Below, piece after piece: positions 7,209 to 62,832 of a stretch of 64,000 bases of DNA (its first letter is position 1; the number at the start of each line of letters is the position of its first letter). Under the pieces are notes generated by a model. The model saw nothing but the letters and a program-made list of their open reading frames with translations, ran no database searches and was not told the origin of the DNA. Location: the NCBI GenBank assembly GCA_007449985.2, contig VIIQ02000180.1, positions 27,501 through 91,500 on the forward strand, read 5' to 3'. The DNA is from Desmodesmus armatus. Lineage: Eukaryota; Chlorophyta; Chlorophyceae; Sphaeropleales; Scenedesmaceae. A program made the translations under genes and the position numbers.

Positions 7209-7300
7209 CACCTGTCTTTTTTCCCCTGTGTGTTGTTGGAGAACCCCACTGACTCCAGCAGGGCCTTGTGCTGTGACAGGCAGTCGCTGGTGACCTATGT
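7209..7300 (-). repeat. Ghost copy of the O-methyltransferase C-terminal exon
   Basis: Read on the minus strand it gives LSQHKALLESVGFSN followed by QGKK, a diverged copy of LSQYKALLQSVGFTN-IQGKK in the real exon at 7476-7652. The ACAG|GTG donor-like end is kept. It lies downstream of the real exon on the minus strand. The sequence after SN has gained residues and runs into an unrelated frame, so it looks decayed. Confidence 0.65.
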
Positions 7301-7475
7301 GTGCCCACCTTCAGCCACCCCAGACCGCCAAAAGAAGAAAGACGCATCTATCCTTCATGACACATCACGCCACCCCCTTCACTCACACTACCAGTGGTGG
7401 GCCTTCACAGATCTATGGGCACTGTTCAGCTGAGCCACACGCTCATATCCCACACACGTTGGCACACCCACGCAC

Positions 7476-10271
7476 CTGTCTTCTTGCCCTGTATGTTGGT
7501 GAACCCCACTGACTGCAGCAAGGCTTTGTACTGTGACAGGCTGCGCTCCCTCCCGTGTGTCTGTGTGAGCATGTTGAGGCTCTGCAGCAGCACCTCAGGG
7601 GGGGAGGTACCCCCCTCATCTAGCAGCATCTCAGCTAGGAGCAGGGCACCACCTGCAGGTGGGACATGGGGGGGGGGGGCAGAGAAAGTAGCTTTTCAGT
7701 CACAACCAAGGTGCTAGCTTACATAGGGCGGGGGGGGGGGGGGCATGGGCGGGAGGGAGCAAGGGAGCGAGAGAGGGGACAAACACGAAGCCAAAGGCTA
7801 ATTGAACGGGGCCGGCTGGGGAAGATGCACAAGAACAACTTCTTGTGATATCACTCTATTGTAGTGGACTGCAGCGTGCCCCCAAAGCCCCGCCTAGCTT
7901 TCGGCAGCTTGTCATAAACTGCCTGCAGCAGCTGCATGACTCTGCCCTCCTCCCAGTCGTGCAGGATGGGGCCCAGCACCACCAGGTTACAGTCGGTGTG
8001 CCCTTTCCACTCCCGGCTTGTCACCCCTCCCCCCCCCCCCCCCCCCACAACACCAATTCCCTCCTGCCCCCTCACTCTGGAAAGAAAGGCTACCATTCCT
8101 CCCGGCTGGTAATTGGTGCAAGTGGGGGAGGGGGGCGAAGTGCCCCCTATGTCCCCTCCTTTCTTACCTTTCGGCAGCTTGTCACATACTGCCTGCAGCA
8201 GCTGCATGACTCGTGTCTCCTCCCAGTCATGCAGGATGCGGCCCAGCACCACCAGGTCACAGTTGTTGTGTGCCCTTACCACTCACTGCATGCACCCCTC
8301 CCCCCCCCTGGCGCGCGCATTTCTGGCCCCTCCCTCTGAAAGTGAGGCTACCCTTGCCTCAAGGTTTCAACCCACAAACCTTAAACCCACAAATTTGTGG
8401 GTGAGTGAGTGGGTCAGTAGGTGGGGGTGGACGCACCCGAGCCTCCCTTGCCTCTTAGGTAAGGCTTACCTTGTGGCAGCTTGTCATGGACTGCCTGCAG
8501 CAGCTGCATGACTCTGCTCTCCTCCCAGTCATGCAGGATGCGGCCCAGCACCACCAGGTCACCATCAGGGAGGAGGGCAGGGGGGCCAAAGAAGTCGGCA
8601 GAAACCCATGACAACCGCGATCCAGCAGCCTGCACGTGTGTGTAAGACACAGCATGATAGAAGTGTGTTCAACATATGAGTTGCATCAAGCATGTACATG
8701 TGTGTGTGTGGGGGGGGGGGCGTGGGGCACCACACTCTCAGTCACGCCTGCGCACACCACCTGTGCATGCACAGTGTGCTGCCAGCACATTTGAGAACCT
8801 CGAGATAGTGATGACGTGCTCCCTCGCCTTCTGCACCACATGATGCTGGTGTACTTCTACCAGCTTGCTCAAGCTGGCGTGGGGCACCACACATGCAGCC
8901 GCTGCCAGCACCCCTTCCACAAGTGCTAGATCACCTCGATGTATCTTACACAACTACCCCAGTGTTTTCCACACCCTCCACCCCACCTCGAGACACACCC
9001 TGCCCTTCCAAGTGTCTTACACACTTACCACTGCTGTTGGCGTCTTGCTGAAGTGCTCCCTTGCCTTCTCCACAACGTGCGGCAGATCCACCACCACCGC
9101 CTTGCTCAAATCAGGGTACAGCACACAAGCCGCTGCCGCTAATGCTCCTGTAGCCCCGCCCCAATCCACCAAAACCCTGAACCCCGACAGGTCAAACGCG
9201 GTCAGCACCGCCTGTGCTGACAGTTGACTAAACCCATGCATGCCGCGCATGAAGCGCAGGACGGATGAGTCATCGTTGTAGAGGCTTGCGAAGATCTCGC
9301 TGCTGCTGAGGCCAAATGCAGCACTCCATGCATTGCTGCCTGTAGTGACTGAGGTGTGTAGGTGGCCCCAAAGGGTGTAGAGCATGTCGGAGTGTTGGAC
9401 GTAGCCAGAGAGGGAGTCCTCCGATTCCTGTGTGTGTGAGAAAGGGGGGGGGGGCGTCGGTTGGGCAGGGGCCGAGAGAGAGGGAGGGAACAGGTTTTTG
9501 GGCGTGAAGGGATGGGCAGGGCGAGAGTTGTGGAAGGGGGGCAAGTGAATGAGGTGTGTAGGTCGCCCTCAAAGGGTTTCAAGCCTGTCGGGTGTTCCCA
9601 CATAGCCTGAAAGGGAGTCTGCTGTGCATCTTGGGCCCAGGGGGCGGGGTAGTAGGTGCCCACGAAGTGCAGAGCATGTGAGTCAGGGCGGGGCTAGAGA
9701 AGGAAGCCTCCAATTCAAGGGGGGTGGGCTATCGGGCATTTGGAACGCCACCGGGGGGGGGGGGGGCAAGTGACGTGTTGATGACTGGCAGCTGCTGAGG
9801 TCTATACCCCAATGCATAGCACTGTGCTGCACAGTGCTGGCCTGGAGTATGGCACACCGATGCTTGCAACTCATCAATATGCAGTACGAGCTGGTGACAG
9901 CAGCTAAACTGTTGCCTTGGAGTGCTGATTGTAGCAGTATGCATGCTGATGCTGCTGATGCTGCTGCTGCTGCCGAAGTTGCTCCTGCTCCCATCTTGAT
10001 CGTCTATGTAAGTAACAACAAGTGCGGTTCGATCAGCTAAGGCTCACCGACAGCAGGTACCTCTTGGTCATAGGAGTGAGACCATAGCCTTGCCGGTCAC
10101 CTGACAGCAGCCCTAAACCCACAGCAGCGTCCAGCAGCCTGCCTAAGCCATCGTGAGAGGGCTCAGCCCCTGCTGCTGCTGCTGCTGTAGGTGCTGCCTC
10201 TGCAGCAGTACCAGCACCAGCAGGCGTTAGGGCCTGAGGGGCGATCAGCTCTGCTAGGTCCTCAAGTGACA

Positions 10272-10306
<35 letters not shown>

Positions 10307-11354: not shown

Positions 11355-11387
<33 letters not shown>

Positions 11388-14300
11388 CAACACACCCACC
11401 ATCACCTTGTCAAGGACCATTGCTGGTGGTGCTGCTCCTGGCAGTGGGGGTGAGTGGCAGATACTCGTGGAGATCTGTGTTATTGACTGTGCATGTTTGG
11501 GGCTGGAATGTCCCTATCTTGTGTGGGTGTGTTGACGGGATCGAATGCGTGCAAGTCATGCAGGCATTGGGTGTGTGTTAGGCACGGAGAATAAATGTGT
11601 AGCTAGCATACTATGAAGACGCAAGTCACATGCAAGCAATGTGTGTGTGTGGGGGGGGGGTACAGTTTGGGACAGTGCAGATGTTGGGCTAGAGTCCCAG
11701 CCATGAATGATGCATTTTTTTGGAACAATGCATGCATGAAACTGCTCAGGTTTGGTTGGTTGACGGTGGCAACCATCTGGCTGCCCCACAACCTACCCTT
11801 CCGAGGACAGTTCCCTGGAGAGTCCCCAGCAGCAGCACTGCCCCCCCCCCCCCCCCCACACACACACACAAACCTTGGAATGTCACATCCTTGGATGGTT
11901 GATACCTTGGCTGGATGCACTCCATGTGTCTACACACACATGCACGCACGCACACTCCAAGTCACACAATGCATGCATCTCCTACATACTCCACATGTGC
12001 AACACACACACCCAACCCCAACACCCAGCACACACATCTGATGGCTGCCCTTGTGCCTCTCCCCCCCCTCCTCACAGGTACCCCTTTCCAGGAGACCCCG
12101 GCAGGTGTTGCCCTGCTACCCACCCAGCAGCTGCTGCTGCCCCTCGACACACCCCTGCCCTATGGCCACACTACAGAGGGATACCTGCTGCTGCCACCAG
12201 AGTCAAGCCCTGATCCAGCAGCAGCAGCAGCAGCACCTGCAGCAGTGCCAACACAAACAGCAACAGCAGCAGCAGCTACTAGGCCACAGCCACAGCCGAC
12301 ATCATCACCACCCCACTAACCCACACCCCAGCATCGTTGGCAACGATTGCATCACCAGCAGCGGCGACGGTGGCAGCACCACCAGCAGCAGCAGCAGCAG
12401 GTGCACAGGAGCCTGCACTCACCCCCACCCTCGTTCTCAACCTCTCACCCAGCCAGCAGCAGGAGCAACAGCAGCAGCAGCAGCAGCAAGAGCCATTCCC
12501 AGCTGCTGCTGCCGCCGCTGCTGCTGCTGAAGCTGAGGAGGGTGCAGGTGCTGAACCTGGTGCCATCACACCAGCTAGTTTGCAGCCTGTAGCAGCAGCA
12601 GATGGCGGCGCAATGCTTGCCCCTCCACCTCAGGCTACAGACAGCCCGCCTTCCACACACCCATCAGCAGCAGCAGACACGGTACCACAACCACCACCAG
12701 CAACAGCGCCAGCTGCAGCAGCAGCAGCAGCAGCAGCATTGCATGATGATGGTGGCAATGCTGCAGGTAGTGGTGCTGCTACAGCAGCCTTGGACGGTCT
12801 GTCAGCACAAGCACCAACACCATCAGCAGCAGCAGCAGGGCTGGTCCAGCCTATGGATGAGGCAGCCCTCCCTGATCCCCATGCGCTGTCGGGACCCCAA
12901 GTGACCCTGACAATACCAGTGGCACCGGCATCAATACCAGCAGTAGCACCACCAGGAGCAGCAGCAGCAGCAGGTACAGAGCTGTCCAGACCCTCGGTCA
13001 CTCTTACCCTCCCAGTAGCCCCGGCCGTAACTCCTGCAGCAGCAGCAGCAGCAGCAGCAGCAGGGTCGGCAGGGGACAGCCCTGTTGCAAGGCAGCTCGC
13101 TGCTTTTGCGGCACAAACTGTTGATGCAGCAGCAGCAGCAGCAACAGCATCCCACCTGATGCCACCTCCAGCAGCAAAGCATCCAGCAGCAGCTACTCCT
13201 ACAGCTACACCGATGGAATATGGCGTGGCTGTGGTCACGCAGCAGCAGCAGCAGCAGCAACGTGGTGGGAGTGACGAGGACGTCGCTGCTGCAGCAGCAG
13301 CAGTAGCAACCACCCTGGCAGCTGGAGAGGTGGCAGCAGCAGAAAAGACTCTGCTGCAAGCAAACTCCACCCTGCAACACGTGCTGGACATGCAGCAGCA
13401 GCAGCAAGTCACACCCTCAGCTGCTGCTGCTGCTGACAAGGAACAGCCAGCAGCAACAGCGGCAGCGGCAGCAGCAGCAGCTGCTGCTGCTGATGGTGAC
13501 ACAGAGCAGCAGGGTGTAGCAGCTGCTGCCCACGAGGGTGTAGCAGCAGAGGCTGCTGAGGCAGCAGCGCATGAGGCAGGGCAAGATGACACCCTGCAGC
13601 AGCAACAGCAGCAGGAGCAGCTGCTGATCTCACGCAAGCGCCGCTCCCTGCTGCTGCACGGCACAGCCTGTCACCGGCAGCGACAGCAGCACGCCGCCAA
13701 CGCCAAGCAGCAGCAGCAGCAGCAGCAACCACTGCTGCTGCTGAAGGTAGCGAGGGTGAAGATGACCACCCCTATGACTGGAACCTGGGCGGTCAAGCAG
13801 CCCCGCACCGCACATTGTTCCCCACACAGGGTGACTCACAGCCAGCAGAAGGACCAGCAGCGACAGCAGCACGCCGCCAGCGCCAAGCAGCAGCAGCAGC
13901 AGCAGCAGCAAACACTGCTGCTGCTGCTGCCGAGGGTAGTGAGGGCGAAGATGGCCATCCTTACGACTGGAACCTGGGCGGTTCAGCAGCCCCGCAGCGC
14001 ACACTGTTCCCAACACAGGGTAACTCATCTCCAGCAGCAGGGGCAGCAGCACCAGCAGCACCACCAGCAGCAGCAGCAGCAGCAGCCGGCGTGTGGGCGG
14101 GCTCTGCGGGGCTTGCTGCAGACCTCCTGTCAGGGTCAGACCCCTGGGGCTTCAACGATGTCTTTTCCGACACTCCCACTGCTCCTCCTGCTGCTGCTGC
14201 TGGCCCACTGAAGCCCCTCAGCTTGTCACCACTCGGGCAGCCGCCGGCAGCTGCAGCAGCAGCAGCAGCAGCACTGCCGCCACTGCTGCTGCAGCTGGGC

Positions 14301-14782
14301 AGCAGCCTCAGGGTCCCATCTGACCAGCAGCAGCAGCAGCAGCAGCTAGCACTGCCCTCCCTGTTACTCAGCTCCCGGTCAGGCTCACCAGCAGCAGCAG
14401 CAGCAGCGGCGGCGGCGGCGGCTGCAGCAGCAGTGCACCTGGCCCCCTTGGCACCCCTGCCTGTGCCTTCCCTCTCTGGTCTAGGTGCTGCTGCTGGGGG
14501 GTCAGAGCCTGCAGGTGCCTTGGGTGGGCAGCAGCAGCAGCAGCAGGATGAGGAGCAGCAGGAGCGGACCTCACTGGCTGGGGTGATGCTGGCACCTGCA
14601 CCCACACCAGCAGCAGCAGCAGCAGCAGGTGTGTCAGAAGAGGAGGGGGAGGATCCCGCCATTGCTGAGCTGCAGCGCGGCATGGCATGGCTGCTAGAGG
14701 ATGAGCCGCCATCAGCAGCAGCAGCAGCAGCAGATGACCAGGCACAACAGATACAAGGCCTGTCTGCAGGCCCAGGCGACGA

Positions 14783-14817
<35 letters not shown>

Positions 14818-17376
14818 AGGAGACGTCAAGTAGCCCAGCACCACCATCTCTCACAGCGGCAGCACCAACACCAGCAGCAGCGGCAGCAGCCGCAGCAGCT
14901 GATTGGGACGCAGGAGACCCCTCAGAGGCAACAGCTGCAGCAGCAGCAGGACTGACGCCTGCCGCTGCCACACACGCTGCTGCTGCAAGTGAATTGACGG
15001 ATTCACAACAGCAGCAGCAGCAGCAGCACGAGCACAAGAGGGCCAGTAGACTGCGCAAGCTGCAGCCTCAAGCTGCTGCAAGCAAACCGTCCCAGCAGCA
15101 GCAGCAGCAGGGTGAGGGCGGCAGCAGAGGGGTGCAGGCAGCAGCAGCAGCAGCAGCCGGCACAGGTCCAGTGCTGCCTCACACCTCAGCAGCACAGCAG
15201 GAACCCACGCACTCTGCTGCTGCTGCTGCTGCTGCTGAGGAGGGGGATGGCGGACATGGGGACGAGGGTGGGGGTTACGGGGGGGGTGAGGGAGGTACCC
15301 CTGCTGCTGAGCAGCCTCCAAGGGACAACCCCTTCTCCCTGCAGCCCCTGCACCCCTCACAGCCCCCAGAAAGCCTGCAGTTTATGGGCGCAGGGGCCTC
15401 CACAACCCCTAACCTGTTAAATGCTGGGCTACAGCTACAGCCCCTGGGGGGTGCCAGGCTGGAAGCTTCCTTCCAGACCCTGCATCTAGAGCTCGAGCCC
15501 ATGAGTTTCAGCCTCGACCCAGCGCGCATACCGCAGCGTCTGCAGCCCCTACAGCCCCTACAGCCCCTGACCCTCCTAGATGATGGTACTGGTGGCATCT
15601 TGCAAGCCCTGCAGCCGCTGAACTCCTTATCAGAACCCACCCCATACGGCCTTGGAGCTACTGCTAGTGCTAGCCTTCAGCTGGAGCCCCTAGGGACCGG
15701 CCTAGACCTGCAGCCCCTACAGCCTCTTGGGGATCTGACACAGCCCCTACAGCGTTTGAATGATTTGTCTACACAGCCACTGCTGCAGCCACTGGCACTT
15801 CCCCTGGGGGCTGCAGGGCTGCAGGGAGAGCCTCTGCTACAGCCACTGGCACTGGGCTTGGGGGTCGAGGGGCTGGAGGTACAGCTCACACAGCCTCTGC
15901 AGCCCCTGGCAAGACTGCAGTCCCTGGGTGGGGATGGTGGGGGTGGTGGGAGTGGGGGTGGTGGGCTGTTCAGCTTGCAGCCCCTGACTACTGGTGATCT
16001 AGGCACCACTGCTGGGGGTGGGGATGAGGGTGGGGGTGGCCTTCTGCCAGAGCTGCAGCCCCTGAGCTCAGCATCACAGGCTGGGCAGGATGATGAGCTA
16101 GGGGGCCTGCAGCTGCAGGGGGGTGGTGGCGGTGATGGTGTTGGTGGGGGGCTCAGGGGCTTTAACTTACAGCCCCTGGGTGGGGGTGAGGATGGGGGTG
16201 GGCTTCAGCCCCTCAGCCTGCAGGTGCAACCCTAACTGAGGGTGGGGGTGAGGGTGGCAGCGGTGGTGGGTTGAGTGGCTTTGACCTGCAGCCTGTACAG
16301 CCCCTGGGAGGCTTGACACTCTTACAGGGGGGTGGGGGTGGGGGTGGTCCTACGCCAGATTTGCAGCCTGGCTTGAGCTCAACATCACAGGCTGGCCACG
16401 ATGGGGAGCTCGGGGGTGAGCACCAGCTGCCAGTGGGTGGGGGCGGCGGTGGGGGTGGGGGTGGGGGTGGAGATGGGGGTGGGGGTGGGTTGAGTGGCTT
16501 TGATCTACAGCCCCTGGGGGCTTTGACACTCCTGGGTGGTGGCGGTGGGGGTGGGGGTGAGGATGTTCAGGATGGGGGTGGTGGTAGGCTGACTGCCCTG
16601 CTGCCATTGGGTGGGGGTGGGGGGAGCGAGAGTGGTGGTGGGGGTGGTGGGCTGTTTGGCTTGCAGCCCCTGGGCTTTGCTGCAGGGCCCTCAACTGCCA
16701 CAGCAGCAGCAGCAGCAGCAGCACATGTTGAGGATGTCAGGCCAGGGCTGACCAACCCTCTTGCAGCAGCACTGCTGGCTTTCCTTGACCCACAGGCAGG
16801 CAGCCGCCGCCCTAGCCGCCGCCAGCAGCAGCAGCAGCAGCGTGGTGCTGCTGGTCTGCAGTTTGCGCTGCCTCCGCTGTCCAGTGGCCTTGCTGCACAG
16901 CCGCTGGCAGCCCCTGCTGCAACTCCAGCAGCAGCAGCAGCAGCAGCAGTAGCGTCAGAGGGTGAGGGTGATGAATTTGCTTCTGAGCTAGAGGCCATTT
17001 GGGGGAGTGATCAGCCCACTCACACCTCAAAGCAGCAGCAGCAGCAGCAGCAGCTGCTGCATGCAGGGGGTGGTGTGCCAGTGGGTGGGGTGGCTGTGCC
17101 TGAGCTGGCAGCTGGGGGACAGACACAACAGCTCCGCTGCTGCACTCACAGACAGCAGCAGGACCCGCTGCTGCTGCTGCTGCCGCTGCTGCTGAGGGTG
17201 AAGGTGGTGGGGGTGGTGAGGAAGAGGGGGAGGTGGGGGAATTTTCAGCTGCAGAGTCTCTGTTTGGACGTCTCGTTGCAGCCAAGCAGCAGCAGCAGCT
17301 GCAGGAAGATGAAGGGCTCAGCTTGCGCCCTGCAGCACCCAGGCACTCACTACCAGCAGCAGCAGCACATGCAATC

Positions 17377-17407
<31 letters not shown>

Positions 17408-19291: not shown

Positions 19292-19324
<33 letters not shown>

Positions 19325-21443: not shown

Positions 21444-24230
21444 ATGGGGCCACTAAACGGCATCTGTAAGTCCAAAAGTGCATCTGCACGTTTCAAAGAA
21501 GCGCTGGCTGTCCTCGCGCATCAGCGAAGCGCGTTGCAGCAGCAGCTGGCTGAGCTTGAGGTTGAGAGTTCCTCCCTTGAGGCCCGAAGCAGCCTTATAT
21601 CTTCCTGGCTAGATGTACTCGACCTATTGCAAAAGTCTCAACCGCCTGTTTGGCCAGCAGCAGTAGCTGATGATGAGAATCAGCAACTCCAGCAGGAGCT
21701 GGACACTGTGCGAGCTCTGCTGGAGCCACAGCTGCAGCAAGTCAGCAGCAGCAGCAGGAGCACGAGCACGGCATCGCAGTACGTCAAACCTCCCACGTCG
21801 TCAGCAGAAGCTCCCGGGTCCTCAGACCCCTTGCTGCAAAGCATCGGGCATGATGCAGTTGCACTGTTTCGCGACCTGGCGGCTCGGCCTCTCACTCCGG
21901 GGATTGAAAGTATGACAGTTATGGAGCACCTGGAGCAGCACAAGCAGCTTGCTATGCAGCTGGGGATTCAGCTTATGCAGCTGGAGTGTGTGACTGTCCG
22001 CTCCCACAAGATGAGGGCCCTGGAGAATATCAAGGAGATGTTGACCAGGTGCGGCAGCTGACCCTGCTTATCACTACTCTTTCTTTTTGTTTTCTTTTTC
22101 TGGTAACTTTTCCTTCACAGGGGTGGGTGCATTCATCAATTCACTACAACCGTAACTTTCACAAACAGCATGTGTATGTGTTTATCATGACTCTTGATGA
22201 GGCCGTCACTTGCTGGTGTGCAGCTCGCCCCCCCCCAGTTGCAGTGCTGCATGCATGGTGTGCTGGCAATATACTAGCAGCCATACACCCCTTCTGCCAC
22301 CTGCACCTGCAGTGTCCCTGCGTACCAGATACATTAGTGTGGGTCAAAGAGCACAACATCCTGTACTGTGCTGTGCTGCGCTGTGTTCAGCATGTATCCA
22401 TCTCGCATAGCCCTGTCTCCCCACAACGGAGACCAGAGATGTTATGTGATCCATCTGCTGCGTAAGACAGCATGTGCCTGTACCTTCCTACCTGCTGCCT
22501 CTCTGCCGCAGGCACTACCACGTGATGTGGTCGCTGATCATTGTTGGCAAGCGTGACGTAACGGACGCAACCAAAGTGTTTCACCTGGAGTCAAGCTCCC
22601 TCCTCACACCAGACTCACCTCTCCTGGACAATCAGGTTGGTACAGTCCTGCAGGAAATTACTGTAATCCAATCAAACTATACAGCGATTCAGCAGTCCAA
22701 CAGAAGCAGTAGGTTAGTTTCCCGGCGCCCCAATCCCCTTTACTGGGGCGGCTGATGTACCCAGTCACGTGTGCATGGCCAAGGCTGTAGCACACAAAGG
22801 GGGTGTATGGGTTCACCTCCCATGCCAGTTAGGTCCAGGCACTCGGCACCTCCTGGGTACAGCATGTCAGGTGTCCCTCATCGATGAAGGTTAGCCTGCC
22901 GCCCCAGAAGTCAGGGTAACTCGCCTGAGTTGTGTGGGGCTAGCCGGTGGGGTGTGCGCCCCCTATGGACACTGGAAAAGACACCCAGCAATCTGAAAGA
23001 GAGACAGTAGGTCAAGAAGTGTGTTCCTGTTGTGCAGGCCTCCATTGCCACCACCCTGCTGCCAGTGTACCTCACAGGGATCACTGGACAGACTTCAGCT
23101 GTGAGAGGCCCTGCCGCACCTTTGAAAGCATGCATGGCAAAAGAACTTCGTGTGCATGGATGCATCAATGCCTGCTCTCTTCCTCTGCCTTTCCATCCAC
23201 CCCTACAGGCCTCCATCGCCACCACCCTGCTACCAGCCCTGCAGCTGTCAGAGGCCCAAGAGGACGCAACAGCAGCAGTCATGGAGCTCTGCGAGTCACT
23301 CATGGCTCCCATAAGTGTGGAGATGTCACACATCCAGCAGCAGCTCAACGACTGCATCACACGCAGCAGCGCTGCGTATGATGGCACAAACATTCCTGGC
23401 AGCAGCGGTGGCTGCGACGGCGGCAGCGGGATGGCAGTAGACGATGTGGGTGGCAGCAGCGGCAGCAACTCGGATGCGGACAAAGCAGCAGCTGCGGCGG
23501 CAGGGCGTGTGTCAGGCAACGCGCTGCTTGAGCAGCAGGAGCAACTGGTGTCGCGGTTGAACCTGCTGCTGCGGAAGCAGTACCATGTGGTTGCTGCCAC
23601 GTGTTGCATCTTCCTCAGTGGACTAACGTGGGTGCAGGCAGCAAAGATGGTCGTGTGCAGGTGAGCAGCGGTGTGAGTTCAAAAAAATGACGTTACAAAA
23701 ATGACGTTACGTTGTGACTTAGCAGGAGTGGCTCTGGCTTTCTGTGTAAGCCGCGGGTTTGCTGGCTAGTACTGCAGTATGGGGCGCAGCATCAGCAGCT
23801 GTCCCAGTTACATACGTGGATTGTGCTGTGCTGTGCTGTGCTGTGCTATACTGTACTGCCATGCCCAGCTTTGCACTGTACTGTACCTACAGTTTGCACT
23901 GTACTGCACATGCTGCTGTGCTGCCCGTCCCTCAGGTGGCCCTTGACCGCCAGCATGCAGTACGTTGCCAAGGCTGTCTGGATCACGCAGCAGCAGCGGG
24001 TGCAGCGGCGCCTGGCAAGCCTCGGCCCCGGCGGTGACAGCGTCCCTCATGCACCGTCACGCACCCCGGCTCCTCCTGTGCCTCTGAGAGCACCCGGCAG
24101 CTGTGACCCGTCTGTTGCAGCAGCAGTGCTGGGGCAGTGGGGTACTGGGGAGCATCTCCGCGGCAGCGGCAGCACCGCTGCAGCTGCAGCGGGAGGAGCA
24201 TCAGCGGGGCACAGCAGCGGTTCAGGATGA
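21444..24230 (+). CDS. Coiled-coil protein, four exons, family not recognised
   Basis: Exons 21444-22048, 22512-22635, 23209-23660 and 23936-24230 join in phase (2, 0, 2) to give 491 residues ending in TGA at 24230. Residues ~10-65 form a strong coiled coil (FKEALAVLAHQRSALQQQLA, then SSLEARSSLISSWLDVL), preceded by a short basic stretch (KSKSASARFK). Exon 2 encodes HYHVMWSLIIVGKRDVTDA. Exon 3 encodes helices (ASIATTLLPALQLSEAQEDA, then MELCESLMAPISVEMSH) and a Gly/Ser/Ala linker. Exons 3-4 encode LLRKQYHVVAATC and MQYVAKAVWITQQQRVQRRL. The pattern recalls the many bZIP-derived coiled-coil proteins of green algae. I see no canonical basic DNA-binding region, so no function is given. Confidence 0.65.
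23037..23110 (+). repeat. Ghost (or alternative) copy of exon 3 start in the coiled-coil gene
   Basis: GCAG|GCCTCCATTGCCACCACC here matches ACAG|GCCTCCATCGCCACCACC at the real exon 3 (23209), and CAGCTGTGAGAGGCC matches CAGCTGTCAGAGGCC further on. It carries its own acceptor and a possible donor (GTGAGAG), so it could be spliced as a short alternative exon. It lies 172 bases upstream in the intron. Confidence 0.65.
23822..23847. repeat. (TGTGC)n pentanucleotide repeat in an intron
   Basis: Four to five TGTGC units lie in intron 3 of the coiled-coil gene. Shorter runs of the same unit occur near 22365, 26221, 38495 and 52018. Confidence 0.8.
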
Positions 24231-24484: not shown

Positions 24485-27279
24485 GGGGAGTGAGTGCTGT
24501 TGGTTGCCAATGGTGCTTGCTGCACAGGCCGATGCAGGGTTGCAGCGCTGAACGTATGCTGGGGCTGCTCATGATGGGGTTGCTCAGAACCTCCAGAGTG
24601 TGAAATGTTGTCCAAGTTGTTTGTGCGCAGGCGTGGACCTGTTGCAATGCAGCACAATCAAGTGAGCCTCAGACAGTGTGTTTGTTCAGGTCTATTTCTG
24701 CCTTCTGATCCCAACAGAAGCACTGGCAACAGCTGCATAATGTGCCTGGTGGTGTGAAGCATATCTTGCTTGTTATCAATGTCAAAGTTGTGAGCGGTTT
24801 GCTTTGGTTTAGCAACAACAAGTGTGTCGTCCCGCAGTACTTGTGCCAAAGCATGGCAGAACGCATGCACTGCTGGGGTGGCTGTTGCAACCTGCAACAG
24901 GGCATTTGCTGGGTCATGGGATGCGTCCTGTAAGGATTAGGCATGTGTTCATGTTGTCTCCTGGTGGTGGTTTGGTGCGACGCAATAGCACCATTCAGAG
25001 GAAAGGGGGTGGGTGGTGGGTTGCTGGGTCTGTCTTTGAGGAGTCTGTCACTGGTTAATTGGTTGGTTGGTTGAAGGAATGCTTCTCCTTTCTCGTCGAC
25101 CACAGCATCCCAATGCAATGCAGAGCTGTGTTGTTGGTGTGGGAGGGATGCTACGTCGTGGGGATACAATGAGGGGATGTGTCTGTATCTTCTTGGTATG
25201 AAGGCTTGGGCTTGTCTGTTGGGTTGATGCATCTTGGGTTGCTTGGGTGGTAAAATATTATGGTGTATTGCAGATGTCGCCAATGATGGCGACATGAAGC
25301 ATCGTATGCAACATTCAAATGTGTGTGGACACCGCATGCTTTCAATGTGGTAGTATGTCTTGACTGCGCTGCATGTCTCAACCTGCTGTACGACAGGCAG
25401 AATATGTGAGAACGCTTGGGCGTGTTACTTGCCATGCTGCTGGCAAGCTAGCAAGGTGATCGCCCTGAGATAGATACCTGTGGGGCTGGGAAGATGCGTG
25501 TTATTGTGGGGAGTTGCATCTGTTATGCTCATCAATTCGAAAGATGAGTGATGGGTGTTAACCGTCACTGCAAGAGGTGGGAGCAGTAGGCTGTGTGTTT
25601 GCAAGCGGGAGAGCATACCTGCTCACCGGTTGTTGGTGATCATCTGGGTGTGCTTGCTGGGGTTTTGGGTCTGCAATGCTGTCCATGCTGTCAGGGGGCC
25701 CGTCCATGACCGCAGGACAGGCGACCTTAAGGTTTTGTTGTGCTGTTGTTCCCAGTGACCCTGAGGTATGGTATTGCTATTGTTCCTAGCACCCCAAGCA
25801 CCACTGCTGCAGCATTTGTTCCTAGCACCCCAAGCACCACTGCTGCAGCAGGCACCAAAACAGGTGTCTTGCCTCTCTCAACACTCTGCCCGGCACCCAC
25901 CTGCACCCTTGTGCACATTATGCATGCGCTTTTTGTGCAGCTGTGAGCTCTCAGGCTTTCACGGTGCATTTCGTCAAGGGTCGCCTGATCTGCTTGGTGC
26001 GTTGCTGTGGTCTGGATGTCTTCCCCTCCCTGTCAAGCTGTCAAAGTATTGTCGGCTATGGTAGCAGCAACAGTATGCTGATCCTCAGGGCCAGTGTGGT
26101 GGTTAACAGCAGCAAACTGGAAGTGGAGGTGTCAACAGTGGTGTTTTTTTCAGTGGTGTTTGATCCTTGCTGAGGTCAATACTCGCGATCATTACTGTGG
26201 AAGTGTTGAATGCAAAGGATGCTGTGCTGTGCTGTGTGCTGTGCTCAGCAAGGCCGTATTTGTGTTTGTCAAGGCTGGCAAGTCGAGCACCACGGGGCTC
26301 AATGCAACAAGCACTGAATATACTATACTGTAGTTCACTGTGGTGGCTATGTCACAGTGACAGGCATTCAAATCAGAGGGAATTTTGTGGCTTGCTGAGC
26401 GCTGCCGCCCTCATAGATGCGTGCCGTAATATGGCTTGCAGCATTTGAGCAGTTGCGGTGGTGGTATTGTTACTTTGCCACCGCCGTTATGGGGACACGA
26501 ATGGGTCACGGATCCGTTTACACCTCTTTGTTTGTGACTGGGTATTTGTCTCTGTCGCCATGCCTACTGTACCTGTGAGGCTAGTGTGGTATGCCACCCT
26601 CTCTATTCTGTTGTTTGCCTGCCGTTACTGTATCTGGTGAGGGATGCTGGCCATGTATCTCAAGGTCATGCGGCTGATGGTGCCTGTCGCCATATCACGT
26701 TTGACACACATGCATGTTGCTGTGATGGCATATGTGGGCTGTTGGTGCTAGTGTGGCTGCCTTTTTGATGATTTGTTGAACACACTGCCTTACGCCTGCC
26801 TGTACTGCAACATGATGCCACGCCAAAACAAATGACGATCTGGTACTGCATTGTTGGCATCTTGCAAGGTGGTATTGCGAGCCGTATGGATAGTGCAGCT
26901 TGAAGCTGCCATTTTGGCTGCAATCATCGCAGTGCAGCACCCTGGAAGCTTTGGCCTCTTGCGCCTATGGTGATGTTGCCTAACACTGGCACGGCCAGCC
27001 CTTGCGGTGTTGAATTTGCTCTCTCTGATGATGCTGCCTAAGCTCAGGCTTGGATGAAAGGGCGGGTGTAGGCCTTCAACGTGCCTGCATAGGGATACGA
27101 AGGACTGGGTGTGCAGCTGTTGGGGTGTCCAGTTGAGTTGGCTCTGCCAAGCTTCTGCAATCCAGCCTGATTTTCTGAGGCTGTGGCGACCTGTGATTGT
27201 GCTTGTTTGAGGCGGAGTTTACATTGTTGTGGGTGTTGCTTGCTATATTGGGTTATTTACTGTTCTGCCGCAGACCGAC
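24485..27279. other. Long spacer, G/T-rich on the plus strand
   Basis: A TGTAA at 24929-24933 may end the coiled-coil transcript. The rest is rich in G and T on the plus strand (TGGGTTG, TTGGTTGG runs at 25010-25070). A plus-strand open frame at 25943-26173 (VKGRLICLVRCCGLDVFPSL) follows a good acceptor (TTTTTGTGCAG), but I find no partner exons. Confidence 0.4.
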
Positions 27280-28200: not shown

Positions 28201-28660
28201 GAGTGTACCCACCATCAGCATGGTTGCTCAGCACCATCACATACCTTCCCCGCTAAGCATACATACTCAAACCCGTAAGCTTGGGCATGCAGGAAAATGG
28301 TGTCCCGCCATGCCCCCACAATTCATCCAACACCACAGCCTTCTAAATCTGCACCCAAACATGACCCGGACATGATAACCACCAGCTCAGCTTTAGCCTG
28401 TCCACACAGCAGCCACTGCTGTAGGGCCGCCGCAGGCCAAGACATGCATCCACCACAGCCCTCAGCTGGGAGACATTCAACACGGCTGCGCCTTGGCCTG
28501 TGCATTGAGCGCATGCCCAACCCCACAAGCGACCACGTTGGGCCCCAAACTGGCTGTAGACCTTGGCTGAATAGGTACTGCATGGCTGTCACCCTCAGCA
28601 CAGCCTGGTCCGCCAACACTCCCTGCCGACTTTCATTCACTGCACAAACCCACCGTGACC

Positions 28661-28670: not shown

Positions 28671-28851
28671 CTGCTGCATCATGTAGGCTGTGTTTGTCTT
28701 GCCATGACCCCGGCAAACAATGACAACATGGAATGCCGCCACCACGGAAACAACCACAGTGCCCCGCACACCCACCCACCACCCAGGGAGCATGCAGCTA
28801 CGTAGGACAGGTTGAGTACATGTACAACCTGCTGAGACTGCTGCATCACAG

Positions 28852-31800
28852 TCACCCCCAGCACAGCTTGGTCTGGTAGCCCCCTTTCCCCCCTTCTTCC
28901 GCTTCACAACCCCACCCTGACCCGCAGCCCCTGGCAGCTTATACTTCAGCTGCTTGCTGGGGTTGCGGTGGGGCATGAAGGCAGGAGCGAACAAGCTGCT
29001 CGTGGTGCTGCCAGCAGGGCCTGAGAAGCCCCTGCCAGGGTTCGAAACCGGCTCCATCGCTGTTGAGTACCCCCCGCCCCTACCAGTGGGCCCCAACATG
29101 CCACCAGCTTCACTGTGACCCCGTGACGCACCTCCCTGCTGACCGTACCCGTAGCTGTTGCCGTAGCCCTGCCTACCTTGGCGCCTGCTGCCACCAGCTG
29201 CCTGAGCTGATGCTGCCTGCTGGCGCCTGGGCGCTGCAATACCCGTCCCTGGAACCCCCATATCCTGCTGGTCATCATATGCATCCTCAAAGTCCTGAGG
29301 CATGCTACCCCGTGACTTCATAGTGCTGTGCTGGCCAGTGGCAAACATGCCACCGCGGCTGGCAGGAGCCTGCTGCCGCCTGCTGCTGCTGGGCTGCTGC
29401 ACGTGCGCTGGCTGCTCAGCAAAGAAATCTCCCTCATCACCAAACATGCCGTCTGCAGTCGGACCCCTGGCAAAACCCTGCCGCTGCTGCCTGTCATCCT
29501 CTCCAAGCCCGGCACCAAACTGCTGCCGCTCAAAGCAGTCTTCCCCATCTGCCAAGGAGTAGTCGTTGTACCCTGCGCCCCAGGGTGCAGCGCCAGCATA
29601 TGCCTGCCCAAAATCATCCACAGCCCCGTCATCATGGCTCACCTCCAAAAAGTCTGCGTGGCCTGCATGAGCCTCCCCACCCCTCGGAAGCTCCCAGGGG
29701 TCAGGCCCATCTGGTGCTGAGTCATGCACCGCATCAGCCCAGGGGTGTCTGCTGCCAGTGCCCTGCCTAGGGCCCAGAGGTACAGCAGCACTGCCCCTGC
29801 CAGGGCCTGGCCGTTGGTACCGCATGGGACCCACCCCAGCATCATGCTGATGATCAGCATACCCTGGCAGCTCCTGCTGACTTTCACCGCCAAGGCGCAA
29901 CCCATACTCATGCCTGCGAGCAGCACCAGCAGCAGCAGCGGAGGCACCGCGCTGCTGGTATGAGTGTGCAGCAGCGTTGCCCGCATGGGGTGCGCGGGCC
30001 CACGCCCCTGTCCCAACAGCACCCCTGTAGGGCGCCGTGTTTCGGTCCCTGGCTGCTTCTGCATCGTGATGGCTGCGGCCGGACCTATCTCTTAGGAAGT
30101 CATCCAGGACTGCTGAGGGGTCAACGTCAAGCCCAAACCCAGCTGCACCATGCCCCTGCTGCTCCTGCTGCTGCTGGTGGTGCTGTTGGCGCAGTCCTGT
30201 CTGTTGAGGGGAGTCCTGCCAAGGCGTGAAATCCTCAACATCCATAGGCAGGGCATTCAGGCCGCCGTCAAAGCCAGGGGCGTCATATGCCTGCTGCTGC
30301 TGCTCTGGCCAGCCCTGCTGCTGCTGCTGCTGCTGCTCTTGCCAGCCCTGCTGCTGCTGCTGCTGCCACAGCGTGGCTGTGTGGTCAGCACCAAACAAGC
30401 CAGCATCGGCAGGCCCCGGGTTCCCATACCCTCCTGCATCATCCTGCTGCTGCTGCCACTGCTGCTGCTGTTGCTCTGATAGCTGCTGCTCACCCGGTGC
30501 ATAGTGCACCCCAGCAGTAGCACCAGCAGGGTAGCAACCTGCTGCCATGTTGTCCTGGTCAAACTGCTGCTGCTGCTGTTGGTGCTGCTGGAAGGCAGCA
30601 CTATCAGGGCCCTGCTGCTGCTGGTGTTGTAGAGGTGACACCTGCAATGCCTCCTGCTGCTCCTGCTGCCGCTGCTGCTGCACACGCTCTGCTACAGCTG
30701 CCGCCTGCACTTGCAGCAGCTCCAGGCTCCTGGGGGCCAGCACAGCCTGCAGGAGGGCATGCTGCTGTGCCTCCCCTGTCAGTGCTAGCTCAAACAAGCT
30801 AGAAAGGTCGGCTCCATGGCTTGCCAGTACTGCTGCACTCAGGGGGTTGAGTGCACAGCAGGTGCTGAGCCGAGCCTCAGCTGCTGTGGGCAGGTCTGAC
30901 AGCCCGGCAGGAGGCTGTAGGCCACCGCTGGTGCTGCTGGTGTGGGATTCGGCTGCAGCAGTGGCAGCATTGGGGGCCCAGAAGCTGCCGGATACTTCTG
31001 TGCAGATGCGCAGGACTGCATCCTGCGTGTTGGCGGCTGAGAAGCAGGTGAGCAGCTGCAGCTTGACCCCTGCAGCTCTGGCCAGGCCGTGCAGGTTGCT
31101 GCTGCTGCGCAGGATGGGCTGCAGGAGGGAGTCACCCAGCTCCAGCAGGATATACACACAGTCGTAGGACATGCTGAGCGCCAGTAGGGCACGAGACAGC
31201 GCCTGCAGGGCAAGGCCGGAGTCCTGCAGGAGCAGGGCCAGCACACCACCACAGACATGTGTCAGCACAATGCATGGGCAGCATCTATCAGCCATGTGAC
31301 AGCACCCGCAGGTCTGAGTCCTGCAAGAGCAGCACCAGGGCAGCCGCACGACATGTGTCAGCACAGCGCATGGGCAGTATTGGTCAGTCATGCGACAGCG
31401 CCTGCAGGGCAAGGCCTGAAGCATGCAAGAGCACTAGCACGGCCCACAGGGCATGTCTCGGGACACCAAACATAACATGTGCCCGTCACGTGCAAATGCA
31501 TGCATGAGCAGCCCTAATTGCTCACAGCGCGGCATCAGCGCCGCACCTCACTCATCACCCATGTCGGCTACGTCACAATGTATGCAGCAACAACCCTGTC
31601 CTGAGCAAACTGGCACCATCACGTGCACGTCACCTGTTAACGCCAGCGATTTTACAACACCCGCACTGTGACCGTGCACTTGCTCACCTGCGGTAGCTTG
31701 CTGTCGTCCATGATGCACAGGCAGGCCCTGGGAGTCAGCACCACATCTACTGCTGAGCCCACAAGTGCTGCGGCACCACCTGCCTGGCCCCCTCTGCTGC

Positions 31801-42703: not shown

Positions 42704-45700
42704 TTACACCAGCGCCTGCCACTGCGGTTCCAGCCCAGGCTCCTGCATCATCAGCAACAGCACCTGCCTGCACCCTTCCATACCCACAACCCTCCCTCCC
42801 TGGGTGGTCAGCCACTGCCAGCCACACACCTTCAGCTGCTGCTGCTGCTGGGGCCCAGCAGGGCCAACACTCACAAGCACCTTCTTCAACATCCTGCCAA
42901 ACTGCTGCTTTGCCACCCCATCCCCTACCGCGCCATCAGCCTGCGCCTTGCTCCTGCCACCCCTGCCGCCTTGCGTCTGCGTCCCTGTCACACCACCAGC
43001 GCCACAGAGCATCTGAAGGGCAGCCTGCACTGATGCGCACCACTGTGCCGCTGTCAGGCAGCTGCACAGGGCTTTGGGGTCCAGCTGCACAAACAGCTGC
43101 AGTGCTGCCGCTGCCACGCCACTGTCCTTGTCGCAGAGCTTCTCAGCCAAGCAGCGGATCAGGGCTCGTGCGGTGCTGCTGTTGTGAGGCAGCACGACAT
43201 GCTGCAGCAGCTGCACGGCAGCCCGGCGTGCCTGGATGGAGGGGTCATGGCTGGCACAGTAGAGCAAGCTCTCGACAGAGGTGTCAGACCACAGAAGCAG
43301 CTGCAAGTCGTCCGCATCTGCATGCATGCATGTGCAGCACAGCAGCAACAAGATGTCATGTTTTGGAGGCAATTGCACATCGGTCCACAGTAGAATGGTT
43401 GCGGGCAGGACGGTGTTGTCAGGCCACAGTAGAATGGTTGCGGGCAGGACGGTGTTGTCAGGTGGTATCATTGGAACAAACGACAGTCCACAGCAGATGC
43501 GTCATGTCAAAGCTTTGAAATCACTGTGACAAGTTGACTTGTGTGTGACATCACATTCGCTTTTGTGGCGCTGCTCGCCATCCTGACTCAATCCCACCCT
43601 CCTTCCCCCAGGGATGCCCCCCCCCCCCACTCACTCCTCTCACCTGCGGTCTGCTCTGTGAACTCCTCCACGGCTGCCAGCATGGCTGCCAGCGCTGCAC
43701 ACCTCCACTCAACACTGCAGTTGGCAGCAGGGCGCAGCAGCTCGCCCAAACCAATCAACAACTCATGCACACCGCCAGCCATAGCCCTGCTGCTGCTGCT
43801 GTTGCTGGCAGTGACGCCACTGCTGTCGGCCTCTGCAGCAGATGCGACAGCATACTGCTGGTGCTGCCTCCATCCGAACACCCGCTGCAGCAGCAGTAGG
43901 GCACGGCCCATGGCTGCCTTCTCTGCTTTCTTAGCAGCAGCTGCTGTGCCCTTGTTGAGTCCCCGGCTTACACTCACAGGTGCTACTGGCCCACCTGCCT
44001 CCTCAGCTGCTGCTGCTGCTGTGGCGGCTGCATTCTCAGCAGCTGCCAGCTGCTGCTGGGTGAGGATGTGCAGCCCCCGCGACAGAACTTCAGGCCTGTC
44101 ATAAGTGGCCACCAGAGCTGCATGTCATAAAGGGAGCAAGAACAGACATCAGTGAGCCAAAAATGCAGCGCTTGTCTGTGTGCATGTGCGCATGTATGAC
44201 CTGTGTCCCACTGAAGTGCAATGGCTGCCCATCCAACCGCAATCGCAGGTGGCCTCAGCTAGGCCCTCTTGTAGATACTGCTCTGATAATGTACTCAGAG
44301 ACATGTTATGAGCCTCCTTGCCTGGCTGCCGGGTGAACATGTGTTCCCTTCCCTGCAGTATGCAACGACCACAAACACATATCACCTGCCAGTGCTGTGA
44401 AGGCATCACCCTCTGAAGCGTTCTGAGCCTCTGTGTCTCTCTGCCAGGTGTACTAATGTTCCCTTTCCTGCAGCATGTATCAGTAGCAAAGACGGGTTAC
44501 CTGCCAGTGCTGTGCAGGCATCACCCTCCGCCCAGCACTCCCAGTCATCATCAGTCATGCCTGACTGGGGTGCTGCACTGCCGCCTGAGCACCACCCCTG
44601 TCCTGCTGCTGTTTCAGCTGCAGCGGTCGTACTGGCTGCTCCTGCATGCAAGCTGAGAGACCGCTGAGTCAAGCTGCTGGGGATCCTGCCAGTGCCGCAG
44701 GGGCTGTTGCTTCCATGGCTGTTGCTGGTGGTTTGGTGGGTGTTGGAGGTTGTCGGCCCTGCCAACATGTGCTGCAGCAGCAACATCATGAAGCAGTCAT
44801 ACAAGCTGTCAACAGTGCTGGGCCGGGTCACAGTTGCTGCAGCAGTGCCAGCCCCAAACCCAGCCGCTGCATGCTTGGCAGCCTCTGCAGCAGCAGCAGC
44901 TGCAGCAGCTGGGGTGCTGGCAGCTTCAGCAAACCCACACCAGCCATAGCTGTTCCTCAGCCATAGGCCTGCAGCCTCTGCTAGCTGTTGCCAGGCTGGT
45001 GCTAGCACTCCCACTGTGGCTGCTGTGCCTGCTGCTGAACCACCTGCATTGCTCTGCAGCTGTGGGGCTTCCTGGCTGCCTTCGCCGGTTTCTGCTGCTG
45101 CCGCAGTGGGCCCTGCATGCATGATTGTAAGGGTGCACACCAACATCAGTGGTTGACAGCAACGAGGTGCGTCCGCATGCATTCTGAAGGCTGCTTCTCT
45201 CTCATGAAATTCCCACGCAGGCCGCCAGGCTGTAGATCTGAACGCGTATCACCGGCAGCACCACCCCCACCTGCATGTGCAGGCAGAGTGGACTGCACCA
45301 TAGTGGCAGCCTGCAGGAGGCAACAAACGCCAGCAAAGGCCTCGCCAGCAGTGATGGCAGCAGCAAGGGATGCAACGGGAAAGCTGCAAGCCATGCCGTG
45401 CTGTCCTGGCTGCAGCAGCCGCAGGAGCTGTTGGGCTGGCTGGAGGCTTGAGGTGTCGGTGCTGCTGCTGGTGCTGGTCTCATGCAGGTGTAGGAAGAGC
45501 AGCAGCAAGTTGATGTTGTGGTGTGCAGCTCCCTTGTGGTGTTGCAGGGGGTTGAGGCCGGTCATCTGCCAGAACTTGTGCAGCTGCTGCACAACGGCAG
45601 CAACACCTGCAGGGAGAAGAGAGGCATTCCATCAGATTGCGCAGGCAGCTGCAATGCAATGTGCTTCTTCGTCTCAGGCTGGCAGGAGGTGCATCCAGCA

Positions 45701-48779: not shown

Positions 48780-48810
<31 letters not shown>

Positions 48811-49043: not shown

Positions 49044-49078
<35 letters not shown>

Positions 49079-49222
49079 GCACACCGGGTTTGTCGTCAGC
49101 TGTGAAAGCAGCGCACACCACGCCCCAGCAGCAGCTGCGGCAGCAGCAGATGGCGGCGCTGCTTGGAGCGGCACCTGCCAGTTCTGTCAGCTTTGACTTG
49201 GATATGTATGATGTGGAAGAGG

Positions 49223-49258
<36 letters not shown>

Positions 49259-57451: not shown

Positions 57452-57462
57452 CGCCAGTGCAA

Positions 57463-60700: not shown

Positions 60701-61380
60701 CCTACCATAGAATTGGGGCTTGGCAGACACGTCAAACACCTCCCCCAGAATCGCCATGTAAATCTTGCTGCCGCCTGCTGGGTTGTCTGACGTGTACTGT
60801 GCCAGCTGCTGTGCTGTGTACAGCTGGTCCTGGCGGCCCAAACGGCTGACAAGGGTCTGCAGGCGCGGCGGGAGGTGCTCCTGCACTTCAGTATGTTCAA
60901 GTACACAGCACGGCACACAGGATGTGGCTGTGCGCCTGGCCAGCTGCATTGGTTGGCAAAGTTGCATCTGAATGGTGTAGGGAGACATGTGCTGTACCTC
61001 AAAAGCAAGTGCAGAAAAGCGCGTTTGTTGATGAATACCGGCATGCTTTGTGCGGGTAGCTGAATTGTGGTTGCGACCAGCCAGCACCTGACTGTGCTGT
61101 GCAAAGGCGTCGGTTATAGTCACATCTAAACACTTGACTGAACAGCAGGCCTGAACAGCGTGGGCATTGGTATGTACCTTACCTGGACAGGTTCCAACTG
61201 CCTGCGCAGCTGCAGTTGCAGCTCAGTGTTTTGTGAAATCATACCAGCTGTCACAATGCATGTGGCTGCCAGCATCGACACCAGTCGTGCAAGCATAGCG
61301 CCAGGTGCTCGCCGTTGCTGCACACTTGACTGCTGCTGTGTCGCATGCTGCTGCGGTTGCTCAGCTGCACCTGCAGGCAT
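57745..61380 (-). CDS. Neuferricin/CYB5D2-like cytochrome b5 heme-binding domain protein
   Basis: Neuferricin is a membrane-linked MAPR-family heme protein. Eight exons, all in phase: 61380-61183, 60880-60706, 60453-60394, 59848-59757, 59409-59299, 58953-58890, 58431-58310, 57858-57745; 311 residues, TAA at 57747-57745. Residues ~28-48 form a membrane segment (MLARLVSMLAATCIVTAGMI). The b5-like fold starts at ~86 (LYTAQQLAQY), with KIYMAILGEVFDVSAKPQFY, then GAGEGYGHFAGTDGSKSFIT, GDFEADVTDDVSELD, LVGWLDFYMK and RVVGNFYDEAG. The Cys-rich tail typical of neuferricin follows: WPNCNSKW, GRVWCDDGLYPR, WRCACFKELGW and VYPGCDPDAHSCS. Order and spacing match the family throughout. The stop codon overlaps a TGTAA, so the poly(A) site may be very close. 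ATG 61380 is the first in frame; GCCTGCAG just after it could be a cryptic acceptor. Confidence 0.85.
59878..59905. repeat. (GGGTCT)n hexanucleotide repeat on the minus strand, in an intron
   Basis: Four GGGTCT units lie just upstream, on the minus strand, of the acceptor of exon 4 of the neuferricin-like gene. A (CAG/CTG) tract separates them from the exon. Confidence 0.8.
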
Positions 61381-62659
61381 TCAAGTTAATTTTCGGGAAC
61401 ATAAAGGGATTGGGATTGAGCAAGGCTATCACTGGTAACAGTGTCTGTGATTTTACCAGGCAGAAATCGACCCCTGCCCCAACACCAACTGCTACCTGCT
61501 GCTGGCTCTTCCTGTCCAGGCTGTTGCTGCCTTGTGGCCCGCTGCCGTAGTGACATGGAGCCTTGTTGTTTTGTGAGTATGTGTGATTGCGGGACCTGGT
61601 TTTGTTGGTGATCCGCACTGATCTGCAGTGCCAATGGGACAGGTGCAACGGCAGCAAAAGGCACACTTCGACAACTGTTTCAACTTGTATGATCAATGTG
61701 CAGACGAACTCCTGCACCCATTGGTTGAACTTCCTTTGTTGCAACTGTCGACGGTTACGAGCACCGTCAACCGCAACGAACGGGAGTCTATGCAAGCTAC
61801 CCTGTTGACCTGATACAGTGGGGTCTTCAGCATCACCCAGATGCCTTCTTTCTTGTGCCCTTGTGCTGCAGCCTAGCACAGCATGACAGGCCAAGTTGAC
61901 CAGGAGCCTCACACTACAACACTGGACACCCCTTTCCACCAGATATGTGGTCGAGTGCCTCTTAATTGAATGCACTCGATGATCTGCTCAACGGACGCAG
62001 TGCCCGCTCCCCCCCTGGTAATGGTACAGGGCGACTTGACAGGCTCTGCTCTGCTTCCACACAGGGACACATGTGCTGTGCAGCACCGACAACTCAAAGG
62101 GGCAAGTGCCCCTTGACAGGTCAAAATGTACATGGTGTACTGTTACAGGAGTGACACGATTCCTGCCACGTATGCCAGCTTGCAGACAGATCCCTGCAAT
62201 GATAAAAGGTGCAGGGATTACCTGGGGCCACCTCAGGTGACCTGATGCACTGCTAAGTGCATGTTGTCTTGACCCCACCATTCACCCAACCCAAATCCAC
62301 CGTGCCAAACACCAAACCCACATCAAACCCTTGCTGCACCGCTGGCTGCTACCAACATGGTGGTTGTAAGTGACTTCAGGCAGTCACCTCAAACCTAAGT
62401 CACACATCACGGTGCAACCCACCGTATATACACTGTGGGAGCCACTGGCAGTACAACATCTGCACCAGTGTTGCTGAGCCAATGCAGCACATTGCCATCT
62501 GCCTGCCACAAACCTACCACCAGCAAGGAGTCAGGGAAACAATATACAACACAGTATACAGTGCACAAGCAACGTATAGAAACGTGCGCGTTGGCTGAAA
62601 CGGCACAGCAAAGTGCAGTACGCCAGCCAACCAGGTAGGCCTGCACCTTTGACCCTCAG
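61381..62659. other. Spacer between the neuferricin-like and helical-repeat genes
   Basis: One plus-strand frame at 61628-61813 (KAHFDNCFNLYDQCADELLH) follows a CTGCAG acceptor-like site and could be an exon, but nothing joins to it. Otherwise I see only flanking sequence. Confidence 0.4.
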
Positions 62660-62765
62660 GCTCTGCAGCTGAACTCCTCCATGAGCACAATCATCGCCCT
62701 ATCAAGGTGCCCAGCCAACTTGCTGGCCAAAACCCAAAAGGCTCCTGCACGTGGATTGATCGACC
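62660..62765 (-). repeat. Ghost copy of the 3' end of the helical-repeat gene
   Basis: GCAGCTGAACTCCTCCATGAG at 62666 repeats the last codons of the real gene 174 bases upstream on the coding strand. On the minus strand it ends LMEEFSCRA-stop, against LMEEFSCTA-stop in the gene. Homology fades over about 100 bases (CAAAACCCAAAAGGCTCC against CAAAAAACCTAAACGCCTCC). Confidence 0.75.
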
Positions 62766-62832
62766 ACAGCCCAGACACAGCAAAAGCACAGCACCTCAGC
62801 AACCGGGCGGGTCCTGCATAATCTCCAATTAG

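Follow-up and report, generated by a model that had tools for sequence, protein, structure and literature searches.

Introduction

In tandem duplicated mutually exclusive exons, whole exons are copied with both splice sites. Internal duplications of gene pieces, a subject of Gao and Lynch in 2009, are said to be common in eukaryotes. In the potato RdRp gene, PMC4974935 describes a tandem duplication across an intron-exon boundary with gain of a new intron, and also a second one of 83 bp that lies within an intron. Introns arising when exon segments are duplicated in tandem are reviewed in PMC3443670, and Drosophila cases are given in PMC2891723. The present analysis concerns a 64-kb stretch of Desmodesmus armatus DNA (contig VIIQ02000180.1, positions 27,501 to 91,500; the window). 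A preliminary description of the window had noticed that several genes carry decayed copies of their own exon edges in the adjacent intron or just past the stop; these copies are called ghosts here. The ghosts are probably leftovers of ordinary small tandem duplications that were filtered by selection, and there is no convincing evidence that exon boundaries are targeted.

Materials and Methods

The sample comprised 299 kb in all, the 64-kb window and about 235 kb more from the same genome (115.8 Mb, 831 contigs). Gene models were predicted ab initio by a gene finder trained on the sample, giving 48 genes, 266 exons and 218 introns. The stricter version of the gene finder was used; the first one, which drifted onto CAG runs, was set aside. 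The consensus in the predicted genes was TGCAG/G at acceptors and AG/GTGAG at donors, the slash marking the exon edge. The median predicted exon was 171 bp and the median intron 260 bp in the three gene-bearing contigs. Two small repeat-rich contigs (C10 beyond 8 kb, and C200), where gene models are doubtful, were dropped from several counts. Pfam was given the proteins of eight of the 48 genes, one of them partial. The frames of the O-methyltransferase (OMT), LHCA-type, TBC, NAD-kinase and alpha/beta-hydrolase genes were backed, the WD40 gene had a weak match below the cut-off, and no Pfam match was returned for the helical-repeat protein or a coiled-coil protein (47368-51279). SHOC1-like and HEAT-like are names from the preliminary description and are carried over as labels only.

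For every exon, 1.2 kb of flanking sequence on either side was searched for same-strand copies, with all exons hidden and a score of at least 22. Direct and inverted self-comparisons used a score of at least 28. Paired copies 60-600 bp apart were classed by identity and their contacts with exon edges were compared with random placement. The edges in the placement permutations were those of the gene models described above; they include the predicted start and stop positions, part of which are in fact splice edges.

Results

Local direct copies of exon edges

The copies are local and direct. There were 102 direct self-matches at less than 500 bp, while at 6-12 kb eleven of the twelve 500-bp bins held 0-1 and the 9.5-10 kb bin held 6. 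No inverted self-match at this score was found within 5.5 kb in the 299-kb sample. The search of exons against their own flanks gave 41 matches over 266 exons compared to 1.3 per equal control. Fourteen of the 41 fall in the repeat-rich stretches, leaving 27 over 251 exons, compared to 4 in a control with three times as many windows. The facing exon edge was reached within 20 bp in 18 of these 27, the far edge in only one and neither edge in eight, of which three are OMT copies with the edge hidden by masking or by the gene model. The copy lay on the intron or 3'-flank side of the contained edge in 21 of the 27 (three OMT copies by inspection). A copy on the intron side of its own edge points to tandem duplication of an edge-spanning unit and not to random pasting of exon fragments, and from their sequence the copies appear to stem from the tandem duplication of units of 100-350 bp that cover a splice site or stop codon. 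Pasting of exon fragments at random is disfavored: it should yield mostly interior pieces, with copies to both sides of the exon, and interior pieces and far-edge copies are few. No new intron bounded by a duplicated exonic AGGT was seen; the copies examined sit in an existing predicted intron or past the stop.

The occurrence of decayed edge copies, noted earlier in the OMT, HEAT-like, helical-repeat and SHOC1-like genes, was borne out, and so was their range of ages, with identities from 96-100% down to about 65-70%. The lengths of 60-120 bases given earlier hold for part of the set, several copies being shorter, from 28 bp upward. The clearest tandem case is in the HEAT-like gene, where two 115-bp units abut at 44413/44414 (donor 44501). 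The unit of the helical-repeat gene includes the stop codon, and the last 94 coding bases (62833-62926) and 3' flank are copied. Both copies reported for the SHOC1-like gene were recovered, the second with an uncertain edge. The predicted gene at 21921-24230 has a second ghost at 24311-24388. Coordinates are listed in Table 1.

Genes beyond the window show boundary copies too, the LHCA-type, TBC and C10 genes among them. The LHCA-type ghost (locus L016:1314-1607) is identical to its exon at 39 of 41 positions, starts exactly at AG/G and differs by two synonymous changes; no homology was found in the preceding intron, and the ghost reaches a stop within about 70 bases. In the C10 gene nine of ten changes in the nearer ghost are synonymous and the farther ghost has an in-frame stop. 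What seems by eye to be yet another copy, now eroded, of the donor with the start of the intron lies between the exon donor and the ghost at L015:5463-5858, a region which, from its sequence, looks to have passed through at least two rounds of duplication.

Ghosts of the OMT gene

The OMT protein, assembled by eye, matched PF00891 (Methyltransf_2, 6e-54) and PF08100. Among the best 120 of 1581 matches it is closest to a eukaryote protein (59% identity) and to two Scenedesmus proteins (57% and 53%), the 59% and 57% matches covering its whole length. Four copies from three exons had been described for this gene; copies are indeed present but number five, from four exon parts. The edges at 7479 and 9429 were set by eye because the gene model was wrong at both. 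Ghosts B and C derive from the same exon part, A. They share changes relative to A (CTGCCGAAAG) and have flanking intron in common, and B also shares intron with A. The intron of B scored as homologous in that none of 60 null introns reached its score with a 160-bp window; a 110-bp window gave 0.151. Two OMT stretches searched against the genome matched their own locus only (lower bounds), and other genomic copies were rejected as a source of the ghosts. The pairs 7205/7469 and 7876/8140 have an identical spacing of 264 bp, possibly by coincidence.

Contact with exon edges

Random units of the observed sizes placed in a gene spanned exactly one splice edge in 39% of cases and were intronic in 19% and exonic in 29%. 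As unit sizes are close to exon and intron sizes, geometry accounts for most edge contacts. Exact and near-exact young duplications are present in the sample, in agreement with the earlier suggestion of partial tandem duplication as a continuing process. No significant preference of young duplications (at least 90% identical), on which decay has yet to act as a filter, was detected for boundaries in the sample: 9 of 75 touched an exon edge compared to 8.0 ± 2.5 expected (P 0.41). In the three gene-bearing contigs 5 of 54 did so, with 5.5 expected. The period was below 50 bp in 57 of the 75. Among young units of at least 60 bp, 6 of 18 touched an edge compared to 4.4 expected (P 0.25), and 2 of 7 compared to 2.3 in the three contigs, the power being low for long units. 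The preliminary description had suggested a process acting at exon-intron boundaries and had called for a self-alignment; run here on 299 kb, this gave no excess at edges among young duplications. A moderate preference, of about two-fold among young 60-600 bp units, is still compatible with the sample.

Paired copies of all ages in the three gene-bearing contigs touched an edge in 17 of 35 cases (10.5 expected, P 0.018). Pairs below 90% identity did so in 15 of 30 (9.5 expected, P 0.02) and pairs of at least 90% in 2 of 7 (1.4 expected). With the two repeat-rich contigs, pairs below 90% gave 19 of 46 (12.1 expected, P 0.014). This modest excess at all ages is what speaks for a mutational process targeting boundaries, for example the slippage or repair at CAG-rich exon edges guessed at previously. 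We consider such targeting improbable, given the young duplications above and the pairs outside the window, where the all-age count in the three contigs was not significant (10 of 24, 7.6 expected, P 0.18). Nor was CAG enriched at duplication flanks, the CAG-family density being 0.204 beside 19 exact tandem duplications compared to 0.222 overall. The overall edge excess is modest, about 1.3 to 1.6-fold, and in our reading a boundary-seeking process is not needed. In simulation, the detection time of boundary pairs was 1.3 times that of pairs lying wholly in introns. Microhomology was considered as a cause and set aside as uninformative: none was present in 8 of the 19 exact duplications, and the longest extensions came from multi-copy or homopolymer arrays.

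Divergence of exon and intron parts

Intron parts diverged faster than exon parts. Aligned intron columns differed at 20% (341/1720) and exon columns at 14% (232/1667), with overlapping rows. The ratio of 1.4 is below the 2:1 of simple one-sided constraint and was measured only where introns still align. With a 160-bp window all 15 anchored intron scores lay above the mean of the null, and with a 110-bp window 13 of 15 did; with the latter, whose null includes the intron itself and has a floor of 0.005, 5 of 15 were at 0.05 or less. The intron part aligns at 44501, C100 7820, C50 WD, OMT 9030 and 31223, and is borderline at OMT 7479 and C10.

Synonymous changes made up 7 of 8 in four ghosts without intron homology, 25 of 62 in six with it and 19 of 30 in three intermediate ones, in a grouping made post hoc on small numbers. 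The rows OMT_9430 (wrong phase) and OMT_8470_C (shifted) were left out of these counts. An alternative set of rows, with the C200 and NAD-kinase rows and the B-C pair, gave 47 of 97.

Table 1. Exon edges, their ghosts and young tandem duplications. Positions are those of the window unless a locus is named.
Feature	Location	Strand	Basis
OMT exon, acceptor-side part	9344..9429	-	Methyltransf_2 in frame; acceptor by eye; copy at 9544-9619
Ghost of 9429 acceptor edge, upstream intron	9544..9619	-	82% identity
OMT exon, donor-side part	9030..9129	-	Alignment to old ghost
Old ghost of 9030 donor edge	8802..8920 (about)	-	About 70%; 34-bp core 82%
OMT exon, donor-side part (A), source of two ghosts	8470..8562	-	Alignment
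Ghost B of 8470 donor	8166..8260	-	91%; GTAAG donor retained; downstream intron homologous in part
Ghost C of 8470 donor	7894..7990	-	91%; donor GT changed to CT
OMT exon, donor-side part, donor about 7479	7479..7547	-	Donor by eye; OMT C-terminal region by Pfam
Ghost of 7479 donor edge	7205..7288	-	82-86%
HEAT-like gene unit 1, exon end (44501-44528) and intron start	44414..44528	-	Alignment
HEAT-like gene unit 2, 115-bp tandem copy	44299..44413	-	Exon part 27/28, intron part 72%
Helical-repeat gene, last coding bases, stop codon, start of 3' flank	62776..62926	-	Alignment
Helical-repeat gene, copy past stop	62604..62745	-	70-79%
SHOC1-like gene, acceptor edge 31223 (source 31190-31223)	31190..31269	-	Alignment
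SHOC1-like gene, ghost of 31223 acceptor, upstream intron	31389..31465	-	77%
SHOC1-like gene, copy near gene end, exon edge uncertain	28578..28660	-	73%
SHOC1-like gene, partner of 28578-28660	28841..28922	-	Alignment
Predicted exon acceptor edge, gene 21921-24230	23209..23236	+	Ab initio model, alignment
Short ghost of 23209 acceptor	23038..23065	+	26/28, both differences synonymous, no intron homology
LHCA-type gene	L016:1393-1433, ghost 1567-1607		Exon-against-flank search
TBC gene (C50)	L008:4730-4761, ghost 4872-4903		Exon-against-flank search
C10 gene	L006:7203-7299, ghosts 7439-7535 and 7647-7746		Exon-against-flank search
Young intron-only tandem duplication, 39 bp x 2, no exon edge	43385..43462	.	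100%
Young tandem duplication outside predicted genes, 36 bp x 2	25780..25850	.	100%

Other duplications in the sample

An in-frame tandem duplication of 189 bp (63 codons) lies at 13746-14027, inside a very long Ala/Gln-rich predicted coding region (12041-19992). A direct duplication of about 1 kb with 77% identity, 4-950 against 4293-5288, has its copies 4.3 kb apart and takes in a tandem pair of similar predicted genes; both proteins look leucine-rich. Loci L006/L007 and L021-L023, on two small contigs, hold dense tandem arrays with periods of about 80-360 bp, some more than 90% identical.

Discussion

Under the explanation favored here, short segments of DNA, mostly 100-350 bp in this sample, would be duplicated in tandem at roughly random places, the cause presumably lying at the DNA level. 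Exons and introns are about unit-sized and many units would therefore span one splice site. With e for exon, i for intron and primes for the copies, a unit on the donor side would give e-i-e'-i' and one on the acceptor side i'-e'-i-e. The outer exon would remain whole with the partial copy inside the intron, the ghost would be skipped by splicing, and the mature mRNA could stay as it was. Where a unit covers the stop codon, its copy would likewise end up in the 3' flank. Units within exons would mostly be purged by selection unless in frame; the large in-exon duplication of the window is in frame and was counted for this explanation. Both copies of an intron-only unit would be lost to drift. 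Boundary pairs would be tolerated and, with their exon half under purifying selection, could be recognized for a longer time. Removal of duplications within exons would come on top of this simulated effect in the apparent excess at edges.

Several observations do not sit easily with this explanation. The gene models are ab initio and built from sequence alone. With the two repeat-rich contigs included, all-age pairs touched an edge in 23 of 59 cases compared to 14.0 expected (P 0.003) and young pairs in 5 of 17 compared to 2.4 (P 0.08), so the contrast of young and old is not firm; both counts would also favor the targeting of boundaries. By identity class, the sole significant edge excess was at 70-80% (9 of 15, 4.8 expected). 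The simulated factor of 1.3 is smaller than the 1.6 observed among pairs. The OMT gene was struck at four edges, above an even rate (about 0.002 after correction, the test inputs of 12 in 408 edges and eight OMT edges being our own counts). Short ghosts 93-97% identical to their exon lack intron homology at LHCA, TBC (C50), 23209 and C100 25810; under neutral decay the intron would diverge only about twice as much as the ghost, and these introns should still align. Of 100 changes overall 51 were synonymous, whereas a share of about 0.39 would be expected if neutral ghosts faced a constrained exon (binomial P 0.01); 0.39 is our estimate from 225 synonymous and 699 other sites with synonymous change counted on both sides. 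Selection on ghosts, gene conversion and deletions next to the edge are candidate reasons for the synonymous-rich ghosts.

Some ghosts might be working alternative or poison exons with their sequence kept by selection. This would fit the difference between the ghosts without intron homology and those with it (Fisher P 0.02), the synonymous excess in the nearer C10 ghost (P 0.0014 against 0.39), and the AG or GT kept at the edge in that ghost and in the four without intron homology. It is unlikely, however, as the grouping was post hoc with tiny numbers, no GT usable as a donor was seen between the nearer C10 ghost and the real exon, the LHCA-type ghost soon meets its stop, and OMT ghosts B and C have mixed changes relative to the exon (3 synonymous each, 4-5 non-synonymous). 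Gene conversion from exon to ghost, keeping the ghost young while the intron diverges, would account for high exon identity beside unrecognizable introns and for synonymous-rich differences. It appears very improbable, and the changes shared by OMT ghosts B and C against A suit copying from ghost to ghost better than correction from the exon. There is a slim chance that the 93-97% ghosts, whose differences are nearly all synonymous and whose introns show no homology, have been maintained by selection or because the exon was copied onto them repeatedly. If so, partial exon duplications would go on supplying this alga with spliced decoy or alternative exons, though arising by ordinary tandem duplication.

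Errors of assembly or mis-drawn gene models can hardly be the explanation. The models are ab initio and two OMT edges needed correction by eye, but the copies in the window have diverged by about 4-30%, unlike collapsed or duplicated reads. The frames of the OMT, LHCA-type, TBC and NAD-kinase genes are moreover supported by Pfam, and the OMT protein aligns over its whole length with the eukaryote protein and with one of the Scenedesmus proteins.

The explanation by ordinary tandem duplication indicates that a striking pattern can arise with no special mechanism: a duplication over a splice site may be harmless to the gene, and selection then preserves one copy and with it the trace of the event. 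Counts of exon fragments in introns could usefully take it as their null model, and it is one way for introns to grow longer. The synonymous-only subset of ghosts is a small testable lead. In a literature search, covering top-ranked results and few subscription journals, no study of such decayed copies at exon boundaries in green algae came up.

Mutually exclusive tandem exons resemble the ghosts in that exon-like copies lie side by side in one intron, but the ghosts are partial and contain one edge. The small intragenic tandem duplications of Drosophila exons, with the extra copy hidden by splicing, are also similar (PMC2891723); in the model given there the unit lies inside an exon and a new intron results, whereas the algal unit runs across a boundary already present and makes the intron there longer. 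The statement in the preliminary description that no mechanism had been described overlooks the boundary-crossing tandem duplication with intron gain in potato (PMC4974935). In potato, RNA sequencing supports splicing of the copy into a new exon-intron structure (PMC4974935), while the algal copies look decayed, are known from DNA alone and occur at many loci. The ghosts are best explained as further examples of this already described kind of boundary-crossing tandem duplication, with one small open hint in the synonymous-rich subset.

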